Of a stretch of DNA of 20,935 nucleotides, positions 1,552 to 14,296 are shown in pieces; the stretch's first letter is position 1; each line of letters starts with the position of its first letter. The stretch is from a virus: positions 1 through 20,935 of the IMG/VR virus record IMGVR_UViG_3300014914_000048. One strand, written 5' to 3'. Under the pieces are notes generated by a model. That model did not search any database and was not told where the DNA came from. It was given only the letters and a program-made list of their open reading frames with translations. A program made the position numbers and the translations under genes.

Positions 1552-1935
1552 ATGCCAGGTAAGAGAAAAAAGCAGGGTAGGAAGTTTAGGAATTTGGAGA
1601 ATGGTAAGATGTATACCTCCAAAAACCAGAGTAGATCTGCTAAGGATCGTAGTAGGAAAGCCCTTGCCAGATTAGATTGTTCATTAATGATGAAAGCTAC
1701 TTCTGCAAACAGTACTGAAGGTGCCATTAAGAAAAGAGTTGAGGGCTTTAGGAAGTTCTGTAAAGATAATCCTGATTATTTCTCTAATGCTATGTACAGA
1801 GCCCATAGAAACGATCCTACTATGAGAAAGAGGGCAATATTTACAAGGACCCATTGTGCAGATGGTGTTCAGGTAGTAGAGTATCAAGAGTGTACTAGGG
1901 AAGGGGATTCAGGAGTAGTACATTATGGCCCGTAA
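1552..1935 (+). CDS. Small basic hypothetical protein, 127 residues
   Basis: Unknown function. The N-terminal 45 residues are strongly basic (PGKRKKQGRKFRN ... KNQSRSAKDRSRKALARL), suggesting nucleic-acid contact; the rest contains RKFCKDNPDYFSNAMYRAHRNDPTMRKRA and two C-terminal cysteines. I chose ATG 1552, two bases after the terS stop, with AAGGG at 1535-1539; an in-frame ATG at 1528 inside terS has a weaker ribosome binding site. Its stop (1933-1935) lies inside the first codons of terL, an 11-nt overlap, so the two are probably translationally coupled. A role in packaging is inferred only from its place between the terminase genes. Confidence 0.7.
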   Translation: MPGKRKKQGRKFRNLENGKMYTSKNQSRSAKDRSRKALARLDCSLMMKATSANSTEGAIKKRVEGFRKFCKDNPDYFSNAMYRAHRNDPTMRKRAIFTRTHCADGVQVVEYQECTREGDSGVVHYGP

Positions 1936-4357
1936 GAAATTTGTTCGCAAGAGAAATGTAGTATGGAAGCCTCATCCTGGTTCTCAGGTAGCTTTCTTGA
2001 CATGTCCTGCAGATGAAGTACTATTACATGGTAATAGAGGTGGTGGTAAAACTGACTGTTTACTTATGGATTACTTACAAAGTGTAGGAGTAGGTTACGG
2101 ATCAGATTGGAGGGGTATTATTTTTAGGCAGGAGTACACACAATTAATAGATGTTATAAATAAATGTAATAAATGGATACCTCAAATATTTCCTGGTGCT
2201 AAGTATAATGGTAGTGAGCATAGATGGACATTTCCATCTGGTGAAATGTTATATTTACGTAATATGAAAAGGCCAGAGGATTATTGGGGATATCACGGAT
2301 GGGAAATACCGTTCCTTGGTTGGGAGGAATTGACTAATTGGGCCACTGACGAATGCTATTTACGTATGATGTCTACTAATCGTAGTAGCAATCCAAATGT
2401 GCCTAGAAAAATAAGGTCCACTTGTAATCCCAGTGGTTCTGGGCATGGTTGGGTAAAATCTAGGTTTATAGATCCAGTACCGCCAAAAACAGTATTTTTT
2501 GACAAAGAAACTAAAAAGACAAGGGTCAATATACCATCTAAATTAGAAGAGAATACTGCTTTGTTAGAAGCAGATCCTAATTATGTCAATACTATTTTGG
2601 CTGCTGTAGCAGACGATCCTGTTAAATACAAAGCATGGGTATTAGGTGAATGGGATATTATAGCAGGTGGTGCTTTAACTGATGTATGGGATAAAGATAA
2701 GCAAATATTTGCTCCTTTTGAATTCCCTAAGTCCTGGCACATCTATAGAAGTTTTGACTGGGGTAGTGCGAAACCTTGGGCTGTTACATATGGAGTAGAA
2801 TCTAATGGGGAACAGCCAGATACAGAATACGATATACCTTACATACCTGCTGGCAGTGTCATTATCATAGATGAAATATATGGATGGAACGGTACTGTCA
2901 ATGAAGGTGATAGGGCTACATCCCAGGAAATAGCTGAAAGGGTATTGGAAAAAGACAGGGCCTTAGAAATAGAGTATGGTACCAAAGTATATTCTGGACC
3001 AGCAGATACTTCTATATATGAGGTTCGGGATGGGACAAGTATTGGTAGTAATTTAGCTTCACATGGATGTCATTGGAAAAGAGCATACAAAGGAAGTGGT
3101 AGCCGTGTTGCTGGATTAGCTATTATACGTCAGATGCTGGCTGCTTCTAAAAGAGGTGATTTAGAAAAACCTGGATTATACTTCTTTGACAGGGCCAGAC
3201 ACCATATAAGAACATTTCCATTATTACAGTATGACGAAAAGAAATCAGAAGATGTGGATACTAACCAAGAAGATCATGCATACGATTGTTTACATGGGGA
3301 TACATTAATTGTTACGGATAAAGGGATTATTCCTATTAAAAAATTAGTAGGTTCTTCAGGTAAAGTATTGTCAGTAAATAATAAATTTGCATATTACTAT
3401 GATTGTAGGATGGTACATAAAGAATCAACATTGGTTAGGGTTCATTTTGAAGATAAATCATTTGTAGATTGTACCCCAAATCATGAGTTTTTAACTACAA
3501 ATGGGTTAGTTACAGCAGAAGACTTATTAACTTTACCAGATACGTATTGCATAGTAAATATCCCCTTTATTGTACAGGAGAATATATGGAACGTGTCAAA
3601 ATTATTTCAAAAACTAAACAAGAATTTCAGGGAAAAATGTACTATCTTTGTGGAGAGTACTTTCAAAGAAAAGGCGCAGGACAGCATTCTGATGGTGGTA
3701 GATTACATAAAAAAGTGTACATTACCAATTACGGGGAGATACCTGAAGGATTTCATGTACATCACAATGATGGGGATAAAACAAATAATCAGCCAGAAAA
3801 CCTTGAATTATTGTACGGCCCCATACACTGCTCCTTCCATCAAAAAGAACATAAGCGTGGTATGCCAAAAGAATGTCTGCAGAAAGCCTCAGAATGGCAT
3901 GGAAGTAAAAAAGGAAAAGGATGGCATTTTAAACATTACGAAAATACTAAGGATGCCTTTCATGCCAAGGTTAGTCGCTCGTGCGCTTTTTGTGGTAAAG
4001 AACACCAAACACATTATTCAAAATTGGAAAATACATTTTGCTCCAGTAAATGCAAATCTGCTTACAGGAGAAAGTCAGGTATTGACAATATTGAAAGAAG
4101 ATGTGTCATATGTTCCAAAACATTTACGGTTAACAAGTACTATTCTAGAAAAACATGTAGTAGCCCGTGCAGCACAGCATTGCGTTCTAGGCGTAGAAAA
4201 GGTATCATATTTAGAAGATAAGCAGCCCACTTATTGTTTGTCTGTAAAAGATACTCATACATTTGCCCTTGGTAATGGGGTACTAAGTAGTAATTCTACA
4301 AGATACCTTTTGACTCGTAAATTTACCAAGATGAAGAGAAGAAAGGTTAAATACTAA
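1925..4357 (+). CDS. terL: Terminase large subunit with an intein
   Basis: ATPase-nuclease of the packaging motor, 810 residues as translated, about 474 after intein removal, which is normal for the family. Walker A is GNRGGGKT (36-43); a Walker B-like segment IPFLGWEE lies at 128-135; a coupling-motif-like TCNPSGSGHGW lies near 166-176. The RNase H-like nuclease domain starts with RSFDWG (Asp278), continues with VIIIDEIYGW and GPADTS, and reaches EDHAYD (449-454). There an intein (455-790) interrupts it; the continuation is STRYLLTRK, so the spliced product reads DHAYD-STRYLL, matching the usual D-H-A-Y-D-x-x-R-Y end of this nuclease domain. ATG 1925 has GGAG upstream. The intein splits the gene exactly at the catalytic motif, so active terminase should require protein splicing. 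Confidence 0.93.
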   Translation: MARKKFVRKRNVVWKPHPGSQVAFLTCPADEVLLHGNRGGGKTDCLLMDYLQSVGVGYGSDWRGIIFRQEYTQLIDVINKCNKWIPQIFPGAKYNGSEHRWTFPSGEMLYLRNMKRPEDYWGYHGWEIPFLGWEELTNWATDECYLRMMSTNRSSNPNVPRKIRSTCNPSGSGHGWVKSRFIDPVPPKTVFFDKETKKTRVNIPSKLEENTALLEADPNYVNTILAAVADDPVKYKAWVLGEWDIIAGGALTDVWDKDKQIFAPFEFPKSWHIYRSFDWGSAKPWAVTYGVESNGEQPDTEYDIPYIPAGSVIIIDEIYGWNGTVNEGDRATSQEIAERVLEKDRALEIEYGTKVYSGPADTSIYEVRDGTSIGSNLASHGCHWKRAYKGSGSRVAGLAIIRQMLAASKRGDLEKPGLYFFDRARHHIRTFPLLQYDEKKSEDVDTNQEDHAYDCLHGDTLIVTDKGIIPIKKLVGSSGKVLSVNNKFAYYYDCRMVHKESTLVRVHFEDKSFVDCTPNHEFLTTNGLVTAEDLLTLPDTYCIVNIPFIVQENIWNVSKLFQKLNKNFREKCTIFVESTFKEKAQDSILMVVDYIKKCTLPITGRYLKDFMYITMMGIKQIISQKTLNYCTAPYTAPSIKKNISVVCQKNVCRKPQNGMEVKKEKDGILNITKILRMPFMPRLVARALFVVKNTKHIIQNWKIHFAPVNANLLTGESQVLTILKEDVSYVPKHLRLTSTILEKHVVARAAQHCVLGVEKVSYLEDKQPTYCLSVKDTHTFALGNGVLSSNSTRYLLTRKFTKMKRRKVKY
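3287..4294 (+). mobile_element. Intein in the large terminase (336 residues)
   Basis: Residues 455-790 of the TerL reading frame. Block A begins at Cys455 (CLHGDTLI), block B is VDCTPNHEF with Thr517 and His520 in T-x-x-H spacing, block F is YCLSVKDTHTFALGNG with His778, and block G ends LSSN (Asn790) followed by Ser791 as first C-extein residue. This is a class 1 Hint intein with Cys1, terminal Asn and Ser+1. The penultimate residue is Ser789 where most inteins have His; such variants are known to splice. Between the splicing halves (about 550-765) no LAGLIDADG or HNH motif is visible in this frame; that DNA instead encodes an HNH protein in another frame (3586-4221). Confidence 0.9.
3586..4221 (+). 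CDS. HNH endonuclease nested out of frame inside the intein
   Basis: Homing-type HNH nuclease of 211 residues, read in the -1 frame relative to terL and lying fully inside the intein DNA. The HNH core is at about 57-73 (HVHHNDGDKTNNQPENL), followed by HCSFHQKEHKRG. The C-terminal half holds two zinc-ribbon-like cysteine sets: C133/C136 with C152/C156, and C173/C176 with C191/C195, as in HNH proteins with DNA-binding zinc modules. The frame can be extended to TTG 3547, but ATG 3586 has AGGAG at 3576-3580 with a 5-nt spacer, so I chose it. It can therefore be translated on its own from the terL message, independent of splicing. It probably cleaves inteinless terL alleles. Confidence 0.85.
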   Translation: MERVKIISKTKQEFQGKMYYLCGEYFQRKGAGQHSDGGRLHKKVYITNYGEIPEGFHVHHNDGDKTNNQPENLELLYGPIHCSFHQKEHKRGMPKECLQKASEWHGSKKGKGWHFKHYENTKDAFHAKVSRSCAFCGKEHQTHYSKLENTFCSSKCKSAYRRKSGIDNIERRCVICSKTFTVNKYYSRKTCSSPCSTALRSRRRKGIIFRR

Positions 4358-6778: not shown

Positions 6779-6833
6779 GTAAAACGGGGGTGTCAGGTAG
6801 TTTCATAGAATGAGAATTATTTTTAAAAACTGC

Positions 6834-6862
6834 TTGACACCTCTTAACAGATACTATACTAT
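6834..6862 (+). promoter_or_regulatory. Promoter ahead of the major capsid region
   Basis: Perfect -35 TTGACA at 6834-6839. The -10 can be TATACT (6855-6860, 15-nt spacer) or TACTAT (6857-6862, 17-nt spacer) in a TA-rich run. TGACACC (6835-6841), which contains most of the -35, is the partner of an inverted copy GGTGTCA at 6789-6795, a possible control site. Transcripts would start near 6868, giving a long leader before capsid. Confidence 0.5.
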
Positions 6863-6869
6863 AAAATAT

Positions 6870-6919
6870 ATTCCTATGTAGAATCCAGAGGATTTGAAAT
6901 GGCTTGGGGCCACAGGAAT
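6870..6919 (+). ncRNA. Three-way-junction leader RNA before capsid
   Basis: ATTCCT (6870-6875) pairs with AGGAAT (6914-6919). Inside are two hairpins: AATCC (6882-6886) with GGATT (6890-6894), and GGC (6901-6903) with GCC (6909-6911). It begins within a few bases of the predicted transcript start, so it would form the 5' end of the capsid mRNA, where such structures often protect against decay. A GGCC further down (near 6941) could pair with GGCC at 6908-6911. Single copy, so there is no covariation support. Confidence 0.4.
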
Positions 6920-7010
6920 TATAGAACTAAGCAGTTTTATCGGCCAATGTTGTACGTAGTTATAATAGGAAACTCTAATGATAATATGAATCCTTTGGAG
7001 GAAAAATAAA

Positions 7011-7043
7011 ATGGCAAATATATGTAAGAGATTTGTTGTTTAG
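7011..7043 (+). CDS. Leader mini-gene copying the capsid start (MANICKRFVV)
   Basis: A strong site GGAGGA (6997-7002) precedes ATG 7011, giving 10 codons and TAG at 7041-7043. The first 14 bases match the start of the major capsid gene (7676 on) except for three bases, each in a third codon position: GCA/GCT, AAT/AAC, ATA/ATC, so MANI is kept. The stop codon ends 3 nt before the RNA structure at 7047. It looks like the duplicated 5' end of the capsid gene, now acting as a translated leader for the HNH gene downstream. Confidence 0.6.
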   Translation: MANICKRFVV

Positions 7044-7046
7044 ATT

Positions 7047-7095
7047 ATGAGGATAGGCTGATCACCGAAAAGGAGCTACTCACTCCCTGCCTCAT
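7047..7095 (+). ncRNA. Conserved three-way-junction RNA, copy 1 (HNH cassette A)
   Basis: Outer stem ATGAGG (7047-7052) with CCTCAT (7090-7095); short hairpin GG (7056-7057) with CC (7065-7066) around a 7-nt loop; third stem GGAG (7072-7075) with CTCC (7083-7086) around the 7-nt loop CTACTCA. The element at 10959-11007 shares the fixed parts (GGATAGG, N7, CCGAAAAG, loop CT-N-CTCA, then CCT) while the outer and third stems differ in sequence but keep pairing. GAGTTATTT follows in both, and its GAG could pair with CTC of the loop. Lies between a leader mini-gene and an HNH gene; I know of no family it matches. Confidence 0.7.
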
Positions 7096-7127
7096 TGTAG
7101 TATAGAGTTATTTTAATGGAGATTAAA

Positions 7128-7655
7128 ATGATTACTCAAGCTGAATTGAAGAAGGTATTGCATTATCACCCTAAAACTGGTTTATTTACGTGGAAAGTAC
7201 ATAGAATTAGTAATAGGGTAGGTTCTGTGGCTGGTACCCATACTTATAAAGGGTACACCCAAATAAAAATTAAGGGTAGATGCTACAGAGCAGGACGTTT
7301 GGCTATATTGTATATGGAGGGAGAATTTCCAGAGGGACAAGTAGATCACCTTAATAGGGTTAGGGATGATGACAGGTATTGTAACTTACGGAAATGTTCT
7401 CAATCAACTAACATGAGAAATATTGATACCGCCCGTAATAATACTAGTGGTGTTAAAGGAGTTGGTTGGTGTAATACTCATAACAAGTGGGTAGCTAAAA
7501 TAATAGTCGGTAATAAATTTAAGTGGCTTGGGTATTATATACATAAAGTAGATGCAGTATGTGCTAGATATGCTGCTGAACAGTGTCTGGAATTGGATTA
7601 TTTCAGTCCAGCTAGACAATATTTGATAAATCATCAGGTGTTGTTAAGTACCTGA
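7128..7655 (+). CDS. HNH endonuclease with AP2-like domain (cassette A)
   Basis: Homing endonuclease-type protein of 175 residues located just before the major capsid gene. Residues 1-55 form the usual N-terminal part (GLFTWK, GSVAG, GYTQIKIKGRCYRAGRL), the HNH core is at 72-88 (VDHLNRVRDDDRYCNL), then STNMRN, and an AP2-like DNA-binding domain at about 105-155 (SGVKGVGWCNTHNKWVAKI). ATG 7128 is chosen over ATG 7116 because GGAG (7118-7121) sits 6 nt before it. His74 is present, but the Asn usual in the D-N-R part of this family is Asp82 and an upstream His-Arg is Gly56-Arg57, so activity may be altered. It ends 20 nt before the capsid ATG. Confidence 0.87.
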   Translation: MITQAELKKVLHYHPKTGLFTWKVHRISNRVGSVAGTHTYKGYTQIKIKGRCYRAGRLAILYMEGEFPEGQVDHLNRVRDDDRYCNLRKCSQSTNMRNIDTARNNTSGVKGVGWCNTHNKWVAKIIVGNKFKWLGYYIHKVDAVCARYAAEQCLELDYFSPARQYLINHQVLLST

Positions 7656-7675
7656 TATTATTGGAGGAATTTAAA

Positions 7676-8842
7676 ATGGCTAACATCTGGGAACACCCCT
7701 CTATTATTGCCCAGGAAGCACTTACACATCTGGAAGATGCTCTTGTAGTAACAAAGATGTGTGCTAAGGATAACTCTTCTGAGTTTTCCACACGTGCTAA
7801 TGGTTGGAAAAAAGGTGATACGGTATCTTTCCGTACACATGGTGATTACTATGCAGAAGATTTCTCTGGTAGTATTAACATTCAGGATATCCAGACCTCT
7901 AGTCGTCCAATGACTATTGAGAAACACCTGGATATTTCTGTAGAAGTTACTGCACGTGAAGAAGTTCTTGACCTGGATTCTTTCAGTGATCAAGTTATTC
8001 GTCCTGCTGCATACCGTCTTGCTGAAATGACAGAGACTTATGTTGCTGGTAAAATTCTGCAGGGGGCTGGTCTGTATACTTCTGCAGATCTGTTTGCCGA
8101 TGCCGCAGATATAGCTTTGGCACGTAAGTATGCAACTATTCAACAGCTGAGTACTCAGCGTTTTTGCCTTGTAGATCTGGCTACCGAAGCTAATTTACTT
8201 GGACAGACTTGGTTTAACCAGTCTCAAACACGTGGTGCTGCTGGTGAAACCACTCTGCGTACTGGTGAGATGGGTACAGTAATGGGTATGGATTGGTATT
8301 CAGCAATTACCTTCCCTGAAAGTACTCATACTAATGGTACCCTTGGGGCTTCTGGTACCTTACTTACCAATAATGCCACTTCCACAGACAATAAGATTGG
8401 TTCTAAGACACTGACAGTTGATGGTGGTACTCTTAATGAGACACTGTTGACAGGTGACAGAATTTTGGTGGCTGGTTGTCGTAGGCCTCTTATTGTAGCA
8501 GCGGACATTGCTGATCTGCAGGGCGCTACTTCTGTTTCACTGGTTGATCCTATCACTGAAATTATCAGCGATAATGCTGCTATTACTCTGGTAGGTGGTG
8601 CTAGCACTACTTTTGATATTCATGGTGCTATTTTCGATGACCGTTCGTTGGCAGTCGCATTCCCAATGCTTGACCTGCCTGGAGATAAAGTTACCGCTAC
8701 AGCCTCTAACAATGGCGTAAGTATCCGCATCGTGAAAGGTTACGATATTAACACCAAGAAGACCACCATGTCTCTTGACCTGTTATGTGGTGCATTTGCG
8801 CACGATCCGCGTAGAATCACTATCCTTGCTGACAGTCAGTAA
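7676..8842 (+). CDS. Major capsid protein, P22 coat-like
   Basis: Main shell protein, 388 residues, HK97 fold expected. The sequence resembles the P22 gene 5 coat family: MANIWEHPSIIAQEAL at the start, KKGDTVSFRTHGDY near 50, DLDSFSDQVIRPAAYRLAEMTETYVA near 105 (spine helix region), a Thr/Gly-rich inserted part at about 220-310, and a C-terminal segment with GVSIRIVKGYDINTKKTTMSLDLLCG. ATG 7676 has TTGGAGGAA (7661-7669); a TTG within that site would give a 5-residue longer product and is unlikely. Codon use is smoother (more CTG, CGT) than in neighbours, fitting strong expression. Preceded by an HNH cassette that carries a copy of its start. Confidence 0.88.
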   Translation: MANIWEHPSIIAQEALTHLEDALVVTKMCAKDNSSEFSTRANGWKKGDTVSFRTHGDYYAEDFSGSINIQDIQTSSRPMTIEKHLDISVEVTAREEVLDLDSFSDQVIRPAAYRLAEMTETYVAGKILQGAGLYTSADLFADAADIALARKYATIQQLSTQRFCLVDLATEANLLGQTWFNQSQTRGAAGETTLRTGEMGTVMGMDWYSAITFPESTHTNGTLGASGTLLTNNATSTDNKIGSKTLTVDGGTLNETLLTGDRILVAGCRRPLIVAADIADLQGATSVSLVDPITEIISDNAAITLVGGASTTFDIHGAIFDDRSLAVAFPMLDLPGDKVTATASNNGVSIRIVKGYDINTKKTTMSLDLLCGAFAHDPRRITILADSQ

Positions 8843-8852
8843 GCAATAGGTA

Positions 8853-8889
8853 AATTGCAGGGTGGTGACATTCTAGCTGCCCTGCAATT
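8853..8889 (+). other. 10-bp hairpin after the capsid gene
   Basis: AATTGCAGGG (8853-8862) pairs perfectly with CCCTGCAATT (8880-8889) across a 17-nt loop. No T-run follows, so it is not a typical intrinsic terminator; it may stabilise the 3' end of processed capsid mRNA or reduce read-through. The bases after the stop (TAAGCAATAG) recur after the tail tube gene. Confidence 0.6.
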
Positions 8890-8910
8890 AACATATAAGG
8901 AGATTTACTC

Positions 8911-9135
8911 ATGGTTATCAAAATGTATAAGGGCAGCAGTGAATGTCTTGCAGACATTGATCAAGTGCCGGTTATGGAAAATGCAGGGTGGTCAAGAAAA
9001 AAAGCCGTAAAGAAAGCTAAAGCAGTAAAAGCTCGAGAAGCAAAAGCTGATGTTAAGGTTGATACTACGGATGAGGCAAAGGTTGAAAGGCCAAAGACTG
9101 CCCCCAAGAAACGTCGTAGTGTTGCCAAGAAGTAA
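8911..9135 (+). CDS. Small Lys/Ala-rich structural protein
   Basis: 74 residues. The first third (MVIKMYKGSSECLADIDQVPVMENAGWSR) resembles a short domain found in small phage proteins encoded after capsid, in which a Gly-Trp near residue 26 follows an acidic stretch; the rest is a low-complexity Lys/Ala-rich tail. A binding role on capsid or DNA is possible but not shown. AAGGAG precedes the ATG; the gene lies between capsid and the first head-tail connector. Confidence 0.7.
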   Translation: MVIKMYKGSSECLADIDQVPVMENAGWSRKKAVKKAKAVKAREAKADVKVDTTDEAKVERPKTAPKKRRSVAKK

Positions 9136-9145
9136 GGAGTAAGCT

Positions 9146-9646
9146 ATGGCTTTAGATAATACTGTAGGTTCTGCTGATGCCAACAGTTATGTTTCACTGG
9201 CCGAAGCTAATGCATACTTTGCTGACAGGGCGCACGCTGAAAGTTGGGAAGAAGTAGAGAATCAGGAACAAATGCTGATTACAGCTTCTTCCCAACTTGA
9301 TTGGTACGTCACTTGGAAGGGTACTAGGGTGACTGGTACGCAGGCTATGGATTGGCCTAGGTCTGGTGTGTATGATAAAGTTGGGGAGCTGTATCCAGAA
9401 GATGTTATTCCTAATGATGTAAAAGTAGCTGTATATGAATTAGCATTATCATCTTTTGATGTAGACAGGACAGCTGACGGAGACTTAGCTGGATTATCTG
9501 AAGTACGTGCCAGTTCATTGATGCTTAAAACAGATGATGGTATGTATAATACCAAACCAGATACCATACCTGACAAAATATGGAAAATATTATCTGGGCT
9601 GACCACTAAGAGCGGTATTGGCGTTGTACGCCTCATAAGGGCGTAA
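9146..9646 (+). CDS. Head-tail connector (adaptor), DnaT-like family
   Basis: 166 residues. The opening, NSYVSLAEANAYFADR at about 13-28, is the signature of a family often named putative DnaT-like, found in phages at the place of the head-tail adaptor that docks under the portal. The following helical pattern (QEQMLITASSQLDWYVTWKG ... PNDVKVAVYELALS) matches the compact helical fold of such connectors. AAGGAG lies just upstream of ATG 9146. The order capsid, this gene, then closure and gp10-like genes fits. Confidence 0.78.
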   Translation: MALDNTVGSADANSYVSLAEANAYFADRAHAESWEEVENQEQMLITASSQLDWYVTWKGTRVTGTQAMDWPRSGVYDKVGELYPEDVIPNDVKVAVYELALSSFDVDRTADGDLAGLSEVRASSLMLKTDDGMYNTKPDTIPDKIWKILSGLTTKSGIGVVRLIRA

Positions 9647-9663
9647 TTAAGGGGTAAGGTATA

Positions 9664-10038
9664 GTGTCATTAAAAAACACGTTTAATAAGGCCGCTGAGA
9701 CTGTTTTTAAGGTATTCAAAAGCCTTATAGTTGAAGTTGACTATACAATTATCACTGATGACGGTTTTGGTACTGTAGATAGAGATGAATACACTGTTGA
9801 TATGATAATTGACAATTTTTCTGAACGTGATGTTCAGTTTTTATCTTTTTCAGCATTAATACAGCCTACTGACGTAAAAGGATTGATTAGGGGTAAACAG
9901 TTACGTGATAAAGGTGTTACGCAGTATTCTACACAAGATGTTATAGTAAAAAAAGATGATGGTACCGAGTATTCTATAATAGCCTACAACACAGACCCTG
10001 CAGAGGCTTTGTATACTTTTCTTTTGAGGAATGTGTAA
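9664..10038 (+). CDS. Probable head closure / stopper protein
   Basis: 124 residues, GTG start at 9664 (AAGG upstream). The sequence is beta-rich: FKSLIVEVDYTIITDDGFGTVDRDEYTVDMII, then SALIQPTDVKGLIRGKQLRDKG and DVIVKKDDGTEYSIIAYNTD. I infer head closure from its size, fold pattern and place between adaptor and gp10-like protein. The stop TAA (10036-10038) overlaps the next ATG by one base. Confidence 0.6.
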   Translation: MSLKNTFNKAAETVFKVFKSLIVEVDYTIITDDGFGTVDRDEYTVDMIIDNFSERDVQFLSFSALIQPTDVKGLIRGKQLRDKGVTQYSTQDVIVKKDDGTEYSIIAYNTDPAEALYTFLLRNV

Positions 10039-10478
10039 TGGGCACATTGAATAGAGAAATAAAATTTTTTGGGTCTGTGTATGGTAAACTACAAAAGAAT
10101 GTACGTAATACGTTAGATGTAGAAACACGTGTACTACGTGATAGAATATCTAGAAAATCACCAGTCCGTACTGGAAGGTACAAAAGATCTTGGAGAGTAA
10201 ATAAAACTAGAGGTACTGGTACTATAGCTAATAGTATGATATTGAACCCATTGAAACAGGCATCTGCATTGGAGTTTGGTATAGATCCACAAGAGTTCCC
10301 ATCACATCCTTGGGTAGTCAGTTTTGTAGAGGGTGGAAGTTCTGGTGTAGATATGCAAGATGGCTTAGTCTGGTCTGCTAAAGCAGTAGGTGGTACTATG
10401 TTACCAGAATTTAATAAAGAATACAAAGATAAATTAACTAAAGTACTAGCTAACTCTGCTATACAGGCATTTAAGTGA
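10038..10478 (+). CDS. HK97 gp10-like neck / tail completion protein
   Basis: 146 residues. The segment LRDRISRKSPVRTGRYKRSW near 33-52 is the signature of the HK97 gp10-like family, in which a Pro-Val-Arg-Thr-Gly turn precedes a Trp or Leu strand; a following VNKTRGTGTIANS and ALEFG with a later HPW segment also fit. Members act in the neck or tail completion. Start ATG overlaps the previous stop; its own stop overlaps the next GTG, so the three genes are coupled. Confidence 0.75.
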   Translation: MGTLNREIKFFGSVYGKLQKNVRNTLDVETRVLRDRISRKSPVRTGRYKRSWRVNKTRGTGTIANSMILNPLKQASALEFGIDPQEFPSHPWVVSFVEGGSSGVDMQDGLVWSAKAVGGTMLPEFNKEYKDKLTKVLANSAIQAFK

Positions 10479-10900
10479 TCAATAGAGAAAACGGTTTATT
10501 GGAAATATACAACCGTGTCAAAAACGATAAAGATTCTTTAGGTTTACGGGCGTTCAAACGTACCCCAACTAAACCAATAGATGAGAATTTTCTACCCTGT
10601 GTATTTATGATAGAGGGTGTTGATGACGTTGTAAAACCTGCTACAAGAAACAATACAGGGTACCCCTGTGTTAGAAATCTTGAAGTAACATTAGAAATAG
10701 TTACTGATAGAGATACAGATATAAAGAAGTTATATACAGATGTGCGATCTGTTGTTTTTAATGGTGGAGTTATTGTGGCCGATAATAACACTTTCATTAG
10801 AGAAATTCGCGCAGAAGGACCTACTGGATACGGCTTACCAGATGTATTAGGTATGCAATTAGTGTTGATGTTAGTTTACACTGATATGGGCACTTACTAA
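10475..10900 (+). CDS. Probable tail terminator protein
   Basis: 141 residues. The small alpha-beta protein (YNRVKNDKD ... LPCVFMIEGVDDVV ... RNLEVTLEIVTDRDTDIKKLYTDVRSVVF ... QLVLMLVYTDMG) looks like tail terminators that cap the tail tube and join the head. GTG 10475 overlaps the previous TGA. Position between gp10-like and tail tube genes is the usual one. Confidence 0.65.
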   Translation: MINRENGLLEIYNRVKNDKDSLGLRAFKRTPTKPIDENFLPCVFMIEGVDDVVKPATRNNTGYPCVRNLEVTLEIVTDRDTDIKKLYTDVRSVVFNGGVIVADNNTFIREIRAEGPTGYGLPDVLGMQLVLMLVYTDMGTY

Positions 10901-10925
10901 TTAACTATAATGGAGGACCCAAAAA

Positions 10926-10955
10926 ATGGCTAATTCCCCTAGCACAGACAACTAA
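10926..10955 (+). CDS. Leader mini-gene copying the tail tube start (MANSPSTDN)
   Basis: ATG 10926 after GGAGGA, nine codons, TAA at 10953-10955. The first 29 bases are identical to the start of the tail tube gene (11568 on), and the preceding ribosome binding site region is also near-identical. After that it reads ACCTTAG, close to the ACCTTGG of the real gene but shifted one base. The stop ends 3 nt before the RNA element at 10959. Same design as at 7011-7043. Confidence 0.65.
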   Translation: MANSPSTDN

Positions 10956-10958
10956 CCT

Positions 10959-11007
10959 TAGTGGATAGGGTCGCCCCCGAAAAGTGCCTTCTCAGCACCT
11001 TCCACTA
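10959..11007 (+). ncRNA. Conserved three-way-junction RNA, copy 2 (HNH cassette B)
   Basis: Outer stem TAGTGG (10959-10964) with CCACTA (11002-11007); GG (10968-10969) with CC (10977-10978) around 7 nt; third stem GTGC (10984-10987) with GCAC (10995-10998) around CTTCTCA. Compared with 7047-7095: same 49-nt length, same fixed bases, outer stem changed at four pairs and third stem at three, all still paired. TGAGTTATTT follows at 11016-11025. Its base lies 3 nt after a leader stop codon and it precedes the HNH ribosome binding site by about 25 nt. Confidence 0.7.
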
Positions 11008-11040
11008 TTTAGCAATGAGTTATTTACTTGAGAGGTAAAT

Positions 11041-11541
11041 ATGCAGTATATTGAACTACCGGATGCAGAGTATCTAAATTCTGTGTTCAAATACGATAGA
11101 GTATCTGGTAAATTGTATTGGAAGAAAAGAGTGGCTAATTGTGTTACAATAGGTTCTGAAGCTGGTTGGAAGTCTAGAAAGTACCTACAAGTCACACTTA
11201 ATGGTACTCACTATTATGTTCATAGAATTATTTGGAAAATGGTTTGTGGTACTATTCCTAATAATAAACAAATAGAGCATAATGATAGAAATAGGCTAAA
11301 TAATGCTTGGCATAATTTAAAATTAGTGGATCAATCTACTAATATGCGAAATCAATCGTTGCCTATTAACAATTCTTCTGGTACTATAGGTGTAAGTAAA
11401 CACGTATCTGGGTTATGGGTCGGGTCTATAACTAAGAATAAAAAGCGTGAGACTACTTACCATCAAAATTTTGAGGACGCTGTTGCTTGGCGTAAATCAA
11501 AAGAAATTGAGTATAAATTCCATGTTAATCATGGTACTTAG
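11041..11541 (+). CDS. HNH endonuclease with AP2-like domain (cassette B)
   Basis: 166 residues, same family as the genes at 7128 and 13147. N-terminal GKLYWKK and IGSEAGW, then YVHRIIWKM (His61), HNH core at 78-94 (IEHNDRNRLNNAWHNLK; Glu-His in place of the more usual Asp-His), STNMRN, and an AP2-like C-terminal domain (SSGTIGVSKHVSGLWVGSI). GAGAGG lies 5 nt before ATG 11041. It ends 26 nt before the tail tube start and 65 nt before the group I intron. It may cut tail tube alleles lacking the cassette or the intron. Confidence 0.87.
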   Translation: MQYIELPDAEYLNSVFKYDRVSGKLYWKKRVANCVTIGSEAGWKSRKYLQVTLNGTHYYVHRIIWKMVCGTIPNNKQIEHNDRNRLNNAWHNLKLVDQSTNMRNQSLPINNSSGTIGVSKHVSGLWVGSITKNKKRETTYHQNFEDAVAWRKSKEIEYKFHVNHGT

Positions 11542-11567: not shown

Positions 11568-12599
11568 ATGGCTAATTCCCCTAGCACAGACAACTACACC
11601 TTGGGTAAAATTAATTGCCCCCTATGCAAGTAATTGCATTTGCAAAACCCTCTAATTCAGGGAAATCCTTAACAAGTAGTGTTGAAGGTAATCCTGAGCG
11701 AAGTCTTACCCGACAAGAAACGTGCAACGACTATCCGAAAGGAGTACACTCAAGCGAGTGGAAATGGGGGTTATCCTACATAGGATAATGATATAGTCTC
11801 ATCTGCATGGAAACATGCAGCTGCCATACGGCGGATTAGGTAGTAGCGAGCCTAATTGAAGATAGTGAAAGGTGTAGTATATTTTGATAAGTACGATTTT
11901 ACAAGCTCTGAGTACACCGGAGAACGTGATCTTGGAAATGCCCCTGCTTTTAGCTTTAACCTTGCATTAGAGAAACTGGAGCATTTCAGTTCTCGTGGTG
12001 GGCTGAAGTCTAAAGATAAGGAGATTATTTCTCAGATTACTCCTGGTCTTACTTTTACACTTGATGAAGTCAACAAAGAAAATCTTGCCCTGCTTACAAT
12101 GGCCACCCTGAATGAAGTTACGCAGACTGGTGGTAACATTACTGCAGAAACTCATACTGCTTATGAGGGTAGACGTATTAATTTGTTATACAGAGATATT
12201 TCTGCTGTGACTATTTCTGGTTATACCTCACCTGCGGACTACATTATTGATACTACCCTTAAAGATGATGTTATTGGTCGTATTTATATTGTACCTGCTG
12301 CTGATGGTGGTACCATCACTGATGGTAGTTCTATAGATGTAGACTACACGTATGGTTCTATTACATACACTGAAGTAGAAGCGTTCAATGAGACTGTTAT
12401 TGAAGGTAGACTGCGGTTCGTTTCTGATAATCCGGTTGGTACTCAACAGGAATTGGAAGCTTGGCGTGTATCTCTGACCCCATCTGGCGATACTGCTATG
12501 ATTGGTGATGACTGGTCTACCCTTGGGTTTAGCGGTGAAATTCTTAAGGATACTGCTAATCATCCAGACAGTCCTTATATGACAATCACTATTGTATAA
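11568..12599 (+). CDS. Major tail tube protein, interrupted by a group I intron
   Basis: Exons 11568-11606 and 11868-12599 join to 256 residues. Exon 1 encodes MANSPSTDNYTLG; exon 2 continues KGVVYFDKYDFTS, giving the Y-T-L-G-K-G-V-V-Y-F start typical of this kind of tail tube protein. The rest is beta-rich (GRRINLLYRDISAVTISGYT, GRIYIVPAADGG, EGRLRFVSDNP, WRVSLTPSG, FSGEILKD), as expected for a tube that stacks into rings around the tape measure. Start ATG 11568 has TTGGAGGA. Without splicing, translation stops at TAA 11631 after 21 residues. A TTG at 11856 in frame lies inside the intron and is not the real start. Confidence 0.88.
11607..11867 (+). ncRNA. Group I intron in the tail tube gene (261 nt)
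   Basis: Self-splicing intron, probably IA-like. P1: exon GGGU (11603-11606) pairs with GCCC (11617-11620), giving a U-G wobble at the 5' splice site. P2: ATGCAA/TTGCAT (11624-11639). P3: ACCCTC (11647-11652) with GGGGGT (11766-11771). P4/P5: AATTCAGGGAAATCC with AATCCTGAGC (11690-11699). P7: GACTAT (11729-11734) with ATAGTC (11793-11798), within GATATAGTC. A hairpin CACTC-AAGC-GAGTG (11747-11760) lies between P7 and P3, and TATCC/GGATA forms P8. P9: CTGCATG-GAAA-CATGCAG (11803-11820); ATTAGG/CCTAAT follows. Terminal G at 11867 leaves exon 2 in frame. No internal reading frame. Confidence 0.93.
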
Positions 12600-12640: not shown

Positions 12641-12670
12641 GGGTGGGAGGATAACCTTCCCCTCCCACCC
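12641..12670 (+). other. 10-bp hairpin after the tail tube gene
   Basis: GGGTGGGAGG (12641-12650) pairs with CCTCCCACCC (12661-12670) across 10 nt. The following bases TGCCTTTACA are only weakly T-rich, so a partial terminator or an mRNA stability hairpin is possible. Like the capsid gene, the tail tube gene ends TAAGCAATAG before a strong hairpin. Confidence 0.6.
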
Positions 12671-12706: not shown

Positions 12707-13147
12707 ATGGCTACCCGCACACGATTGAAACTAGACCTAGAGTCTCTATTTCCAGGAGACACCATAGATATTTGTGGTAACACCGTAGATATCCGTCCAT
12801 TAAGTATCCAACAATTAGCAGTCATTGCCCGTAAGCTGAAAGGATTTGGTTCCATACTTTCAGAGGAAGGGGTTACATGGGATAATTATAACCAGCCTGA
12901 GAATTTATTAAAATTGGCTGTTATTCTATTGGAACATGCCCCTGATGTTTTGGAGGAGGGTTCTAATATTGCTATTGAAGACCTTCAAGTACTGCCTATT
13001 GAGGTAGTTGTAGAAGTTTTAGACAAAGTTATTGAAGTTAATATGAAATCCAAAGAGAAATTGGAAAAAAACTTCAAGTCTTTAGCTACTAAATTTAATT
13101 TGGGGCCTGTCCCAGCATCTAGAAAACCCAGAAAACGGAGCAAATAA
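12707..13147 (+). CDS. Tail assembly chaperone G
   Basis: 146 residues. A helical protein binding the tape measure during tail assembly, called from its place between tail tube and tape measure and from its paralogue downstream. Visible features: DLESLFPGDTIDICG then TVDIRPLSIQQLAVIARKL, a middle region LLKLAVILLEHAPDVLEEG, and VVVEVLDKVIEVNMKSKEKLEKN. A classical slip site A-AAA-AAC lies in frame at 13066-13072, as used by chaperone genes for -1 frameshifting, but here the shifted frame stops after six codons (TAA 13090-13092). The normal end is basic (SRKPRKRSK). The stop overlaps the HNH start by one base. Confidence 0.75.
   Translation: MATRTRLKLDLESLFPGDTIDICGNTVDIRPLSIQQLAVIARKLKGFGSILSEEGVTWDNYNQPENLLKLAVILLEHAPDVLEEGSNIAIEDLQVLPIEVVVEVLDKVIEVNMKSKEKLEKNFKSLATKFNLGPVPASRKPRKRSK
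13066..13072 (+). promoter_or_regulatory. Relic -1 frameshift slip site
   Basis: Heptamer A-AAA-AAC, correctly phased in the G frame (GAA AAA AAC). In most siphophages such a site makes the G-T fusion. Here the -1 frame ends at 13090-13092, so it can only give a slightly altered short product; probably a relic of the gene's state before the duplication and HNH insertion. Confidence 0.5.
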
Positions 13148-13626
13148 TGTGCCTTCCACGTAAAGAATTACCTTCACTACATAGATTGTTGGAGGTTTTC
13201 AGGTATGAGGAAGAATCTGGGTTATTATATTGGAAGAGTATGCCACACCCTGCCGCGCATAACATAAAAGTAGGATCTGTTGCAGGCACCAAAAGTAATT
13301 CAAATGGGTATATTTGTGTTACTTTGGATAAACAATTATATGTAGCGCATAGAATTATATGGAAGATGTTCTATGGTACTTTAGGTGTGGATGAAGAAAT
13401 AGATCATGCTGATAGAAATAGGCATAATAATAAGATAGATAACCTTTCTATTGTAACTAGAAGTGAAAATTGTTGTAATAGAAAGTTTGTATCCGCACAT
13501 CCTGGTGTTTGCTGGTATAAACGAACAAAGAAGTGGCACGCTAGGTATAAGAAGAAGCACATTGGTTATTTTGAAAAGTTGTCTGATGCTATATACGCAT
13601 TAGATGCAGTAAAAAATGTTACATGA
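13147..13626 (+). CDS. HNH endonuclease with AP2-like domain, between chaperone genes
   Basis: 159 residues of the same family as those at 7128 and 11041. GLLYWK and VGSVAGTKSNSNGYICVTL, then AHRIIWKMFYG (His68), and the most canonical HNH core of the three (IDHADRNRHNNKIDNLS, 85-101), then a shortened AP2-like domain (HPGVCWYKRTKKWHARYKKKHIGYFEKLSDAIYAL). ATG 13147 overlaps the stop of G (TAATG), so it depends on translational coupling. Its end overlaps the next gene by 11 nt. There is no leader mini-gene or three-way-junction RNA here, unlike the other two. Confidence 0.85.
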   Translation: MCLPRKELPSLHRLLEVFRYEEESGLLYWKSMPHPAAHNIKVGSVAGTKSNSNGYICVTLDKQLYVAHRIIWKMFYGTLGVDEEIDHADRNRHNNKIDNLSIVTRSENCCNRKFVSAHPGVCWYKRTKKWHARYKKKHIGYFEKLSDAIYALDAVKNVT

Positions 13627-14296
13627 TCTACAAGCGCTACATATTGTTAATACTGTTTATATAGGCACTTGTTTATATACGGTACGTCCATATACTGTAA
13701 TAGAGTTATTTGAAGTTATTGCCAAGTTAAAAGCTATTAAGAATAAATTATTAGATAATGGCATCACATTGGATAATTGTTTTTCTGTGCACAATATATG
13801 CCTTATGATAGATTTTGGATACTCTTTCTTGTGTGACGAAATTTGTCTTGTTTTAAAAATGAAGAAAAGTGATTTTGCTATTTTATCACCAGAAGTTGTA
13901 CTTAAAATAGTGGATAGTATTGTTGAAGTTAATTTAAAGTCTAAAGAGTTGTTTGAACAATATTTGAAAGAGCTTGGCCGGAAAATTAAATCTGACCCAA
14001 ACACCGAAGCCGAAATCGCGAAAGCGATCCAAAAGCTAATAAAACACGGTCATTCTTGGTCAAGCCTGAAAACTTATTCGTTAGCTGAAATAGGCATATT
14101 TTTTAAAACTGTTGTAGAGATAGAGGCAGAAGAACGCAAAGAAAACCTATCTCATTTATGGATGGGGGCTAATCTACAACATGATGGTATCAAAGAAGTA
14201 TTAGATTCCTTAACATTGCGTACAGAGGAAGAAGAAATAGATAAAGTAAATGCTGATTGGAGAAGATTAGCATCTTTTATGGCTAAAAATCAGTAG
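13616..14296 (+). CDS. Tail assembly chaperone, diverged G copy fused to T domain
   Basis: 226 residues. Residues about 4-115 are a diverged copy of the G protein: DLQALHIVNTVYIGTCLYTVRP aligns without gaps to DLESLFPGDTIDICGNTVDIRP, and SPEVVLKIVDSIVEVNLKSKE to LPIEVVVEVLDKVIEVNMKSKE. The C-terminal half (HSWSSLKTYSLAEIGIFFKTVVEIEAEE ... DWRRLASFMAKN) has no match in G and is the expected T domain that contacts the tape measure. In usual phages this product comes from -1 frameshifting; here it is a single frame, and the slip site is replaced by GAACAATAT. It lacks only the first few residues of G. No strong ribosome binding site: ATG 13616 lies inside the HNH end, so it relies on coupling. 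Confidence 0.72.
   Translation: MLHDLQALHIVNTVYIGTCLYTVRPYTVIELFEVIAKLKAIKNKLLDNGITLDNCFSVHNICLMIDFGYSFLCDEICLVLKMKKSDFAILSPEVVLKIVDSIVEVNLKSKELFEQYLKELGRKIKSDPNTEAEIAKAIQKLIKHGHSWSSLKTYSLAEIGIFFKTVVEIEAEERKENLSHLWMGANLQHDGIKEVLDSLTLRTEEEEIDKVNADWRRLASFMAKNQ

Follow-up and report, generated by a model that had tools for sequence, protein, structure and literature searches.

A divergent int-alpA RNA with a pseudoknot and a Shine-Dalgarno hairpin as a probable translational leader of phage HNH endonuclease genes

The int-alpA motif, reportedly described in a 2017 paper, is a three-way-junction RNA with a UA(G) + CGAAAAG core and a CCU junction that Rfam (RF02996) lists as a small RNA (sRNA), in a model that stops at what we describe below as a pseudoknot segment and that includes no Shine-Dalgarno (SD) pairing, no SD hairpin (P4), no cis position, and no endonuclease association. 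Here we report two RNAs with this junction in a stretch of virus DNA of 20,935 nucleotides (nt; IMG/VR record IMGVR_UViG_3300014914_000048, positions 1 to 20,935; hereafter the window), one at the 5' end of the major capsid gene and the other at that of the tail-tube gene, each preceding an HNH endonuclease gene. We consider it likely that this RNA is a cis-acting translational leader, a branch of int-alpA extended by the pseudoknot and the SD hairpin.

The C4 antisense RNA of phages P1 and P7 also lies upstream of its own target on the same transcript, with segments complementary to the SD region; C4 is, however, a processed RNA that acts in trans, and Rfam gave no match to it (RF01695) at E<=1 in the window or the scanned relatives. 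T4 homing endonucleases are commonly restrained at the level of translation, RNA structures restricting that of I-TevI, segB, and mobE (PMC2988022). As with those genes, structure at the ribosome-binding site (RBS) would here restrain translation of a phage homing endonuclease, and by analogy the leader probably limits endonuclease synthesis as these unrelated RBS hairpins do, but in the T4 type a simple stem sequesters the RBS, whereas here the SD stands in or near a loop for which the loop of a three-way junction would compete, and the element is one homologous family across unrelated nucleases. The RNA fold itself is already known as an Rfam family; we found no description of the pseudoknot, the SD hairpin, the code by which one loop has two partners, the cis position, or the link to homing endonucleases, which is weak evidence in that the literature searched omits most subscription papers. 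One paper there mentions int-alpA, only in a table and a remark.

Membership of the window RNAs in the int-alpA family

The two copies have the same arrangement, as a first-pass annotation of the window had claimed and the sequence confirms: an SD sequence GGAGGA, a mini-gene, its stop codon, 3 nt, a 49-nt RNA, the segment GAGTTATTT, and an HNH gene. The features of the two modules are as follows.

7011..7043, + strand: mini-gene 1 (MANICKRFVV*), ATG 7011 to TAG 7043, stop 3 nt 5' of the RNA; putative capsid gene 5'-end remnant, left of the inserted cassette.
7047..7095, + strand: RNA copy 1, three-way junction, 49 nt; match to covariance model R2, 47.2 bits; stems P1 7047-7052/7090-7095, P2 7056-7057/7065-7066, P3 7072-7075/7083-7086.
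7076-7082: loop L3 of copy 1, CUACUCA.
7105-7113 (copy 1) and 11017-11025 (copy 2): GAGTTATTT segment.
7105..7108, + strand: predicted pseudoknot partner of L3 in copy 1, GAGU with ACUC 7078-7081, by the family rule of L3/post-P1 complementarity.
7111..7128, + strand: predicted hairpin P4 of copy 1, UUUUAAU-GGAG-AUUAAAA, -5.0 kcal/mol, SD in the loop, last base shared with the start codon.
7128..7655, + strand: HNH homing-type endonuclease 1 (HNH_3, PF13392), Pfam E 3.4e-8, 33.4 bits against a cut-off of 24.8; also PHROG 99, E 1.8e-56.
10926..10955, + strand: mini-gene 2 (MANSPSTDN*), ATG 10926 to TAA 10955, the stop a product of a 1-nt deletion and 3 nt 5' of the RNA; putative tail-tube 5'-end remnant.
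10959..11007, + strand: RNA copy 2, three-way junction, 49 nt; R2 match 54.1 bits, E 1.6e-12; stems P1 10959-10964/11002-11007, P2 10968-10970/10976-10978, P3 10984-10987/10995-10998.
10988-10994: loop L3 of copy 2, CUUCUCA.
11016..11019, + strand: predicted pseudoknot partner of L3 in copy 2, UGAG with CUCA 10991-10994, duplex -3.0 kcal/mol.
11022..11040, + strand: predicted hairpin P4 of copy 2, AUUUAC-UUGAGAG-GUAAAU, SD in the loop.
11041..11541, + strand: HNH homing-type endonuclease 2 (HNH_3), Pfam E 8.3e-14, 51.4 bits against a cut-off of 24.8.

The most likely start of the first HNH gene is 7128, an ATG at 7116 falling inside the SD hairpin. Identity between the two HNH proteins is only 35% across about 145 residues, so the shared RNA does not simply reflect recent duplication of one cassette.

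A core-pattern scan of viral contigs turned up numerous complete junctions among background matches; two more scans of viral sequence and one of genomes added to these, and pairing in P1 and P3 was required of every copy. This wide search yielded many further copies with paired stems (187 non-redundant) in phage and prophage DNA; since it fixed core bases, conservation of the core is partly imposed. The covariance model R2, built from 42 copies of equal length, none from the window, matched both window copies (E about 1e-12 for copy 2 and 1e-10 for copy 1 in 50 kb), so the RNA is not a chance fold. A previous model, R1, whose MAFFT alignment also took in the pseudoknot and P4, contained 3 pairs and gave way to R2, and a weak R2 match at 12644-12667 (12.7 bits) was rejected as a plain hairpin.

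In the Rfam scan of the window, copy 1 matched int-alpA at 27.1 bits, under the gathering cut-off of 35.8, and copy 2 was absent from the int-alpA matches at E<=1, whereas relatives (L060, L017 with two copies, L081, L008, L077, L054, L065, and others) scored above the cut-off, up to 50.1 bits. The window copies are therefore tied to int-alpA through these bridging relatives only. Reciprocally, R2 matched the E. coli int-alpA locus L324 at 47.6 bits, and cmscan alignments showed the three stems with the UA(G)..CGAAAAG..CCU core. The window copies precede HNH genes and do not share the int-alpA location between integrase and alpA. By these results the RNA is a divergent branch of the int-alpA family, and the first-pass view that no described family resembles it has to be given up. 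The E. coli loci also have the pseudoknot segment and are laid out as int, RNA, SD hairpin (clear in L325, weaker in L324), gene, and alpA-like regulator. That gene, of 293-317 amino acids (aa; L324 2582-3535, L325 2582-3463), is absent from the motif's name and matches no known family.

The genome collection gave 18 pattern matches in several phyla. Among 198 genomes from the phylum of Desulfosarcina widdelii, 20 carried a strong match, against 1 of 199 from that of a Lachnospiraceae metagenome-assembled genome, the one being the seed genome itself; the reach of the family is thus uneven among phyla. Among single loci, Klebsiella phage 2b LV-2017 (L416, 2687-3441) carries an RNA (37.9 bits, 2703-2755) and an HNH gene that are unannotated in its record, and L423 (1501-2571) has two RNA copies on opposite strands about 1 kb apart, one of which precedes an AP2/HNH-like gene.

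The junction, the pseudoknot and the Shine-Dalgarno hairpin

Covariation established a three-way junction, P1-P2-P3, with a GAUAGG..CCGAAAAG core. Across the 42 ungapped relatives, 95.2% of cells were paired and both sides had changed in 176 cells, giving a covariation score of 0.718 against 0.127+-0.017 for shuffled and at most 0.159 for slid alignments. Because these rows had been pre-selected for pairing, a less biased test was run on 149 unique matches to a primary-sequence pattern that fixes only two P1 pairs: at least 2 further P1 pairs formed in 88% of them (22% with swapped partners) and at least 3 in 73% (10% swapped). Between the two window copies, the covariation reported in the first-pass annotation holds, but at six pairs, not seven, changed on both sides (3 of 6 in the outer stem and 3 of 4 in the third). 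Its broader suggestion, of a folded RNA whose stems covary and which probably regulates HNH gene expression, agrees with these comparisons.

Two elements were absent from that annotation, namely a pseudoknot formed by L3 with the conserved GAGTTATTT just past the outer stem, and the hairpin P4 with the SD in its loop, directly 5' of the start codon. The complementarity tests demonstrate, as predicted pairings, that L3 has a partner segment a short way 3' of P1 (usually 4-12 nt past it), that P4 holds the SD in or near its loop just 5' of the start codon, and that L3 is complementary to the SD zone too, the two partners competing for it. For 133 non-redundant copies, with loops swapped among copies as the control, complementarity of L3 was 5.05 with the post-P1 zone (3.06+-0.07 swapped) and 4.92 with the SD zone (3.63+-0.07), and words common to the two zones scored 4.48 (3.57+-0.07), with 102 distinct L3 words represented. 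P4 stems of score at least 5 surrounded the SD word in 54 of the 133 copies against 7.3 expected, with 50 distinct 5' arms. The rule is legible in single loci, the loop UUCCCA of L290 having as partners UGGGAA and then UGGGAGG, the loop CAUCGCCA of L309 UUGGCG and then UGGCGAGG, and the loop CCGUCCUA of L314 UAGGAC and then AGGACGG. An independent set of 25 copies was found with R2, a model without pseudoknot or P4, and 23 of these had a usable start codon. In this set the post-P1 zone gave 5.08 against 3.90+-0.18 (maximum of 500 swaps 4.44) and the SD zone 4.79 against 4.14+-0.18, a weaker result because nearly all of its loops are C-rich.

In copy 2, all 7 nt of L3 could also pair with UGAGAGG at 11029-11035, which takes in six bases of the P4 loop and the 3' arm's first base. 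Calculated as simple duplexes, with loop costs left out, pairing of L3 with the SD and with the post-P1 segment (the decoy) came to -7.9 and -3.0 kcal/mol in copy 2 and to -2.9 and -4.1 kcal/mol in copy 1.

Genomic position, proposed switch and competing explanations

An open reading frame (ORF) of at least 55 aa starts 12-75 nt past P1 in 168 of the 187 copies, with a mode of 25-40 nt, and about nine of the 19 copies without one lie within about 220 nt of a contig end. Among the 146 downstream proteins scanned, HNH_3 (36) and AP2 (17) domains were followed by fewer NUMOD, treble-clef DUF4379, DUF723, and GIY-YIG-type matches, and PHROG tallies agreed with Pfam. Those of L027 and L054 resemble GIY-YIG/T5orf172 nucleases, of a fold unrelated to HNH, above Pfam cut-offs for L027 and just below them for L054; further downstream genes encode glycosyltransferases, primases, an integrase, Rha, a DNA methylase, and a major capsid protein. 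The RNA is not endonuclease-specific, though endonucleases are the largest class here. On the 5' side, the stop codon of an upstream gene lies within 80 nt in 130 of 181 copies, mostly 6-17 nt before P1, and a -10-like hexamer occurs within 30 nt in 73 of 181 (about 14 expected), usually ending 0-6 nt before P1, so that transcription would start at P1.

Taken together, the evidence from sequence favours a cis leader over the free sRNA of the int-alpA annotation. In the switch that we propose, L3 held by the decoy would leave the SD loop free and the gene translated, and L3 paired with the SD loop would block translation. Since the L3-SD duplex is stronger than the L3-decoy duplex in copy 2 and slightly weaker in copy 1, copy 2 is predicted to be the more tightly shut. 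Candidate triggers would be a ligand or a protein bound to the junction core, or a ribosome that terminates just upstream and opens P1; because the 5' side of P1 would lie under such a ribosome, coupling could plausibly supply the input for transcripts from the upstream gene, and transcripts starting at P1 would have no such input. More tentatively, the int-alpA junction might be the sensor of a widespread class of RNAs, riboswitch-like and dedicated to phages and mobile elements, and might bind an infection- or host-state signal; a single loop would then toggle between decoy and SD and so set the timing of homing endonucleases, integrases, primases, and further genes. A catalogued 'sRNA' of unknown function appears to be a cis translation switch, with L3, decoy, and SD as its simple pairing code, in phages and prophages of several bacterial phyla, which would correct the int-alpA annotation. 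Homing endonucleases with unrelated folds would share one regulatory RNA, which suggests that selfish genes take up a common valve on their expression.

Several points weigh against this cis-leader model. Which of the two states is ON was assumed, start codons and P4 were assigned by rule and not by annotation, and P4 is not obvious everywhere, scoring below 4 in 46 of 133 copies by the stricter test and below 5 in 74 of 184 by the looser one. The SD zone is rich in purines throughout, and L3 in pyrimidines, so the L3-SD signal is partly compositional, a component that the swap measures, and in the independent set the SD value of 4.79 was equalled by the best of 500 swaps. In copy 1, L3 can make just 3-4 pairs with its own SD loop, a state that would be weak there, and the swap controls leave some shared ancestry in place.

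The first-pass annotation had proposed that HNH expression may be coupled to translation of the mini-gene: on finishing the leader 3 nt before P1, a ribosome would open that stem and so permit or block HNH translation. As a rival to the cis leader we regard this as doubtful, though it could coexist with that leader as its input in this phage: the gap from stop to P1 is 3 nt in both window copies and in the capsid locus L326 and 7 nt in the tail-tube locus L406, and the upstream gene ends noted above are likewise close to P1. Coupling cannot be the general mechanism, because many copies have the promoter-like -10 abutting P1; moreover, the RNA is often preceded by a long gene or by a promoter of its own, its distance from upstream stops varies, and gene-start repeats around the cassette are rare and accounted for by insertion.

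If the Rfam type of int-alpA, 'Gene; sRNA', is taken at face value, the junction would be a separate RNA whose L3 pairs with the SDs of other mRNAs, like the P1 C4 antisense RNA. L3 is indeed complementary to SDs, and the spacer past P1 is U-rich (about 45% T at the first positions, at least 6 T in 8 in 15 of 164 copies), so that some RNAs could end there. This trans-acting role is nonetheless improbable, in that the SD zone with which L3 covaries is that of the gene following the same RNA, a start codon comes 25-40 nt after nearly all copies, the partner in the pseudoknot is located past the stem, and a terminator-like U-run is missing in most copies; processing that would let the RNA work both in cis and in trans is possible. 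The same U-rich sequence, with a T fraction of 0.40-0.47 at the first six positions past P1 and a U-run in the Rfam consensus, could instead make P1 a transcription attenuator, relieved when the pseudoknot or upstream translation interferes, but so few copies reach at least 6 T in 8 nt, and P4 and the L3-SD complementarity are left so unexplained, that we think this quite unlikely. Lastly, the mini-gene copy might work as a guide, leading the HNH protein to the intact gene in the manner of IscB/OMEGA systems: in the window, what lies 5' of the RNAs matches the presumed target gene, and the nuclease is encoded just 3'. We rejected this idea as having hardly any chance of being right, since unrelated nucleases (HNH_3, GIY-YIG/T5orf172) and non-nucleases are encoded behind the same RNA, abutting -10s leave no space for a guide, all 8 of the 8 HNH relatives checked in annotated phages lack an upstream RNA, and the window scans gave only HNH_3, with no RuvC domain (Pfam) and no HEARO/IscB-type RNA (Rfam) of the kind that define OMEGA/IscB.

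Mini-genes, cassette insertion and neighbouring features

The mini-genes are best read as severed starts of the capsid and tail-tube genes, apparently left by insertion of an RNA+HNH cassette, because cassette-free alleles in relatives point to insertion. In the window, two such cassettes would have entered the 5' ends of these genes, with full starts regenerated downstream, which would show how an essential phage gene can take up a cassette at its 5' end and survive. The regenerated genes and the adjoining intron, which lies outside the RNA module, are as follows.

7676..8842, + strand: major capsid gene, regenerated start; Pfam P22_CoatProtein (P22-like coat protein) E 1.3e-19; PHROG 283.
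11568..11606, + strand: regenerated tail-tube exon 1 (MANSPSTDNYTLG); relatives read M..NTDNYTLGKGVV.F.
11607..11867, + strand: group I intron, ends inferred by joining the exons to match relatives; Rfam Intron_gpI 104.3 bits at 11597-11820.

The first-pass annotation had each mini-gene copy the first codons of the next gene. This holds for copy 2, a near-exact duplicate of the tail-tube start (alignment score 42.5 against a control maximum of 14.5), but copy 1 resembles the capsid start only across the SD and the first ~14 bases. Nor does the mini-gene appear to be part of the module: in a flanking-repeat test of 145 loci, repeats were clear of background at three, window copy 2, L233, and L280 (where the repeat looks non-coding), and insertion explains the mini-genes. 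Window copy 1 (13.5) and L065 (11) scored within the control range, so the case for insertion there rests on the identity of the gene starts.

Fifty-five capsid loci were read with the core regular expression and a small HNH profile. Capsid relatives without the cassette have SD-ATGGCWAATATTTGGGAACA at the place of the mini-gene; 53 of the 55 were without such a cassette, and L326 and L365 had an upstream HNH gene. Three other capsid loci had a chance core match without an HNH gene, and the remaining loci had neither. L326 carries a homologous cassette at the same codon, after MANI, with a mini-gene (MANIPDSANV*), 3 nt, an RNA variant, pseudoknot, P4, HNH, and a regenerated start; its RNA, with a different core (CUAGAC..GUUGAAAA), was missed by R2; stems, pseudoknot, and P4 of this variant were assigned by eye. 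L365 has another RNA+HNH cassette, intergenic and without a mini-gene. Among tail-tube relatives, 22 of 23 have no cassette and L406 has one, its mini-gene match ending after NYSL; in the window the match breaks off at the corresponding point, ACCTT, a few nt short of the group I intron site. The HNH cassette is mobile, the same site being filled or empty among relatives (filled in the window and L326 for capsid, in the window and L406 for tail tube). An HNH protein search of viral contigs with copy 2 found no relative, and the best matches in a DNA search with the whole region were mainly to the group I intron part.

The tail-tube intron occupies nearly the same site as the left boundary of the HNH cassette, within about 6 nt, and the two are a possible collaborative-homing pair. 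The position recalls collaborative homing, in which a free-standing endonuclease is paired with a group I intron; unlike there, both elements are in the gene at once with adjacent boundaries.

Other observations concern neighbouring parts of the window. Ahead of the capsid gene, a long inverted repeat at 6785-6870 (GGTGTCAGGTAGTTT ... AAACTGCTTGACACC) runs into a TTGACA / TATACT promoter-like pair; an Rfam match to mir-196 at 6785-6845 was rejected as a chance match to this repeat. A segment at about 6885-6955, 5' of the capsid gene, is conserved in relatives and possibly structured (GTCC.GAGGAC, GGCYAGGGGCC, ATCGGCC), with no Rfam match. The large terminase ORF (1925-4357) has an intein-like insertion (Intein_splicing, residues 470-789, E 6.3e-7, under the Pfam cut-off). 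Finally, within 12707-14296, a third HNH gene (13147-13626), without an RNA, lies between two ORFs resembling a duplicated tail assembly chaperone, which share a direct repeat (13029-13077 / 13920-13968, 73%).

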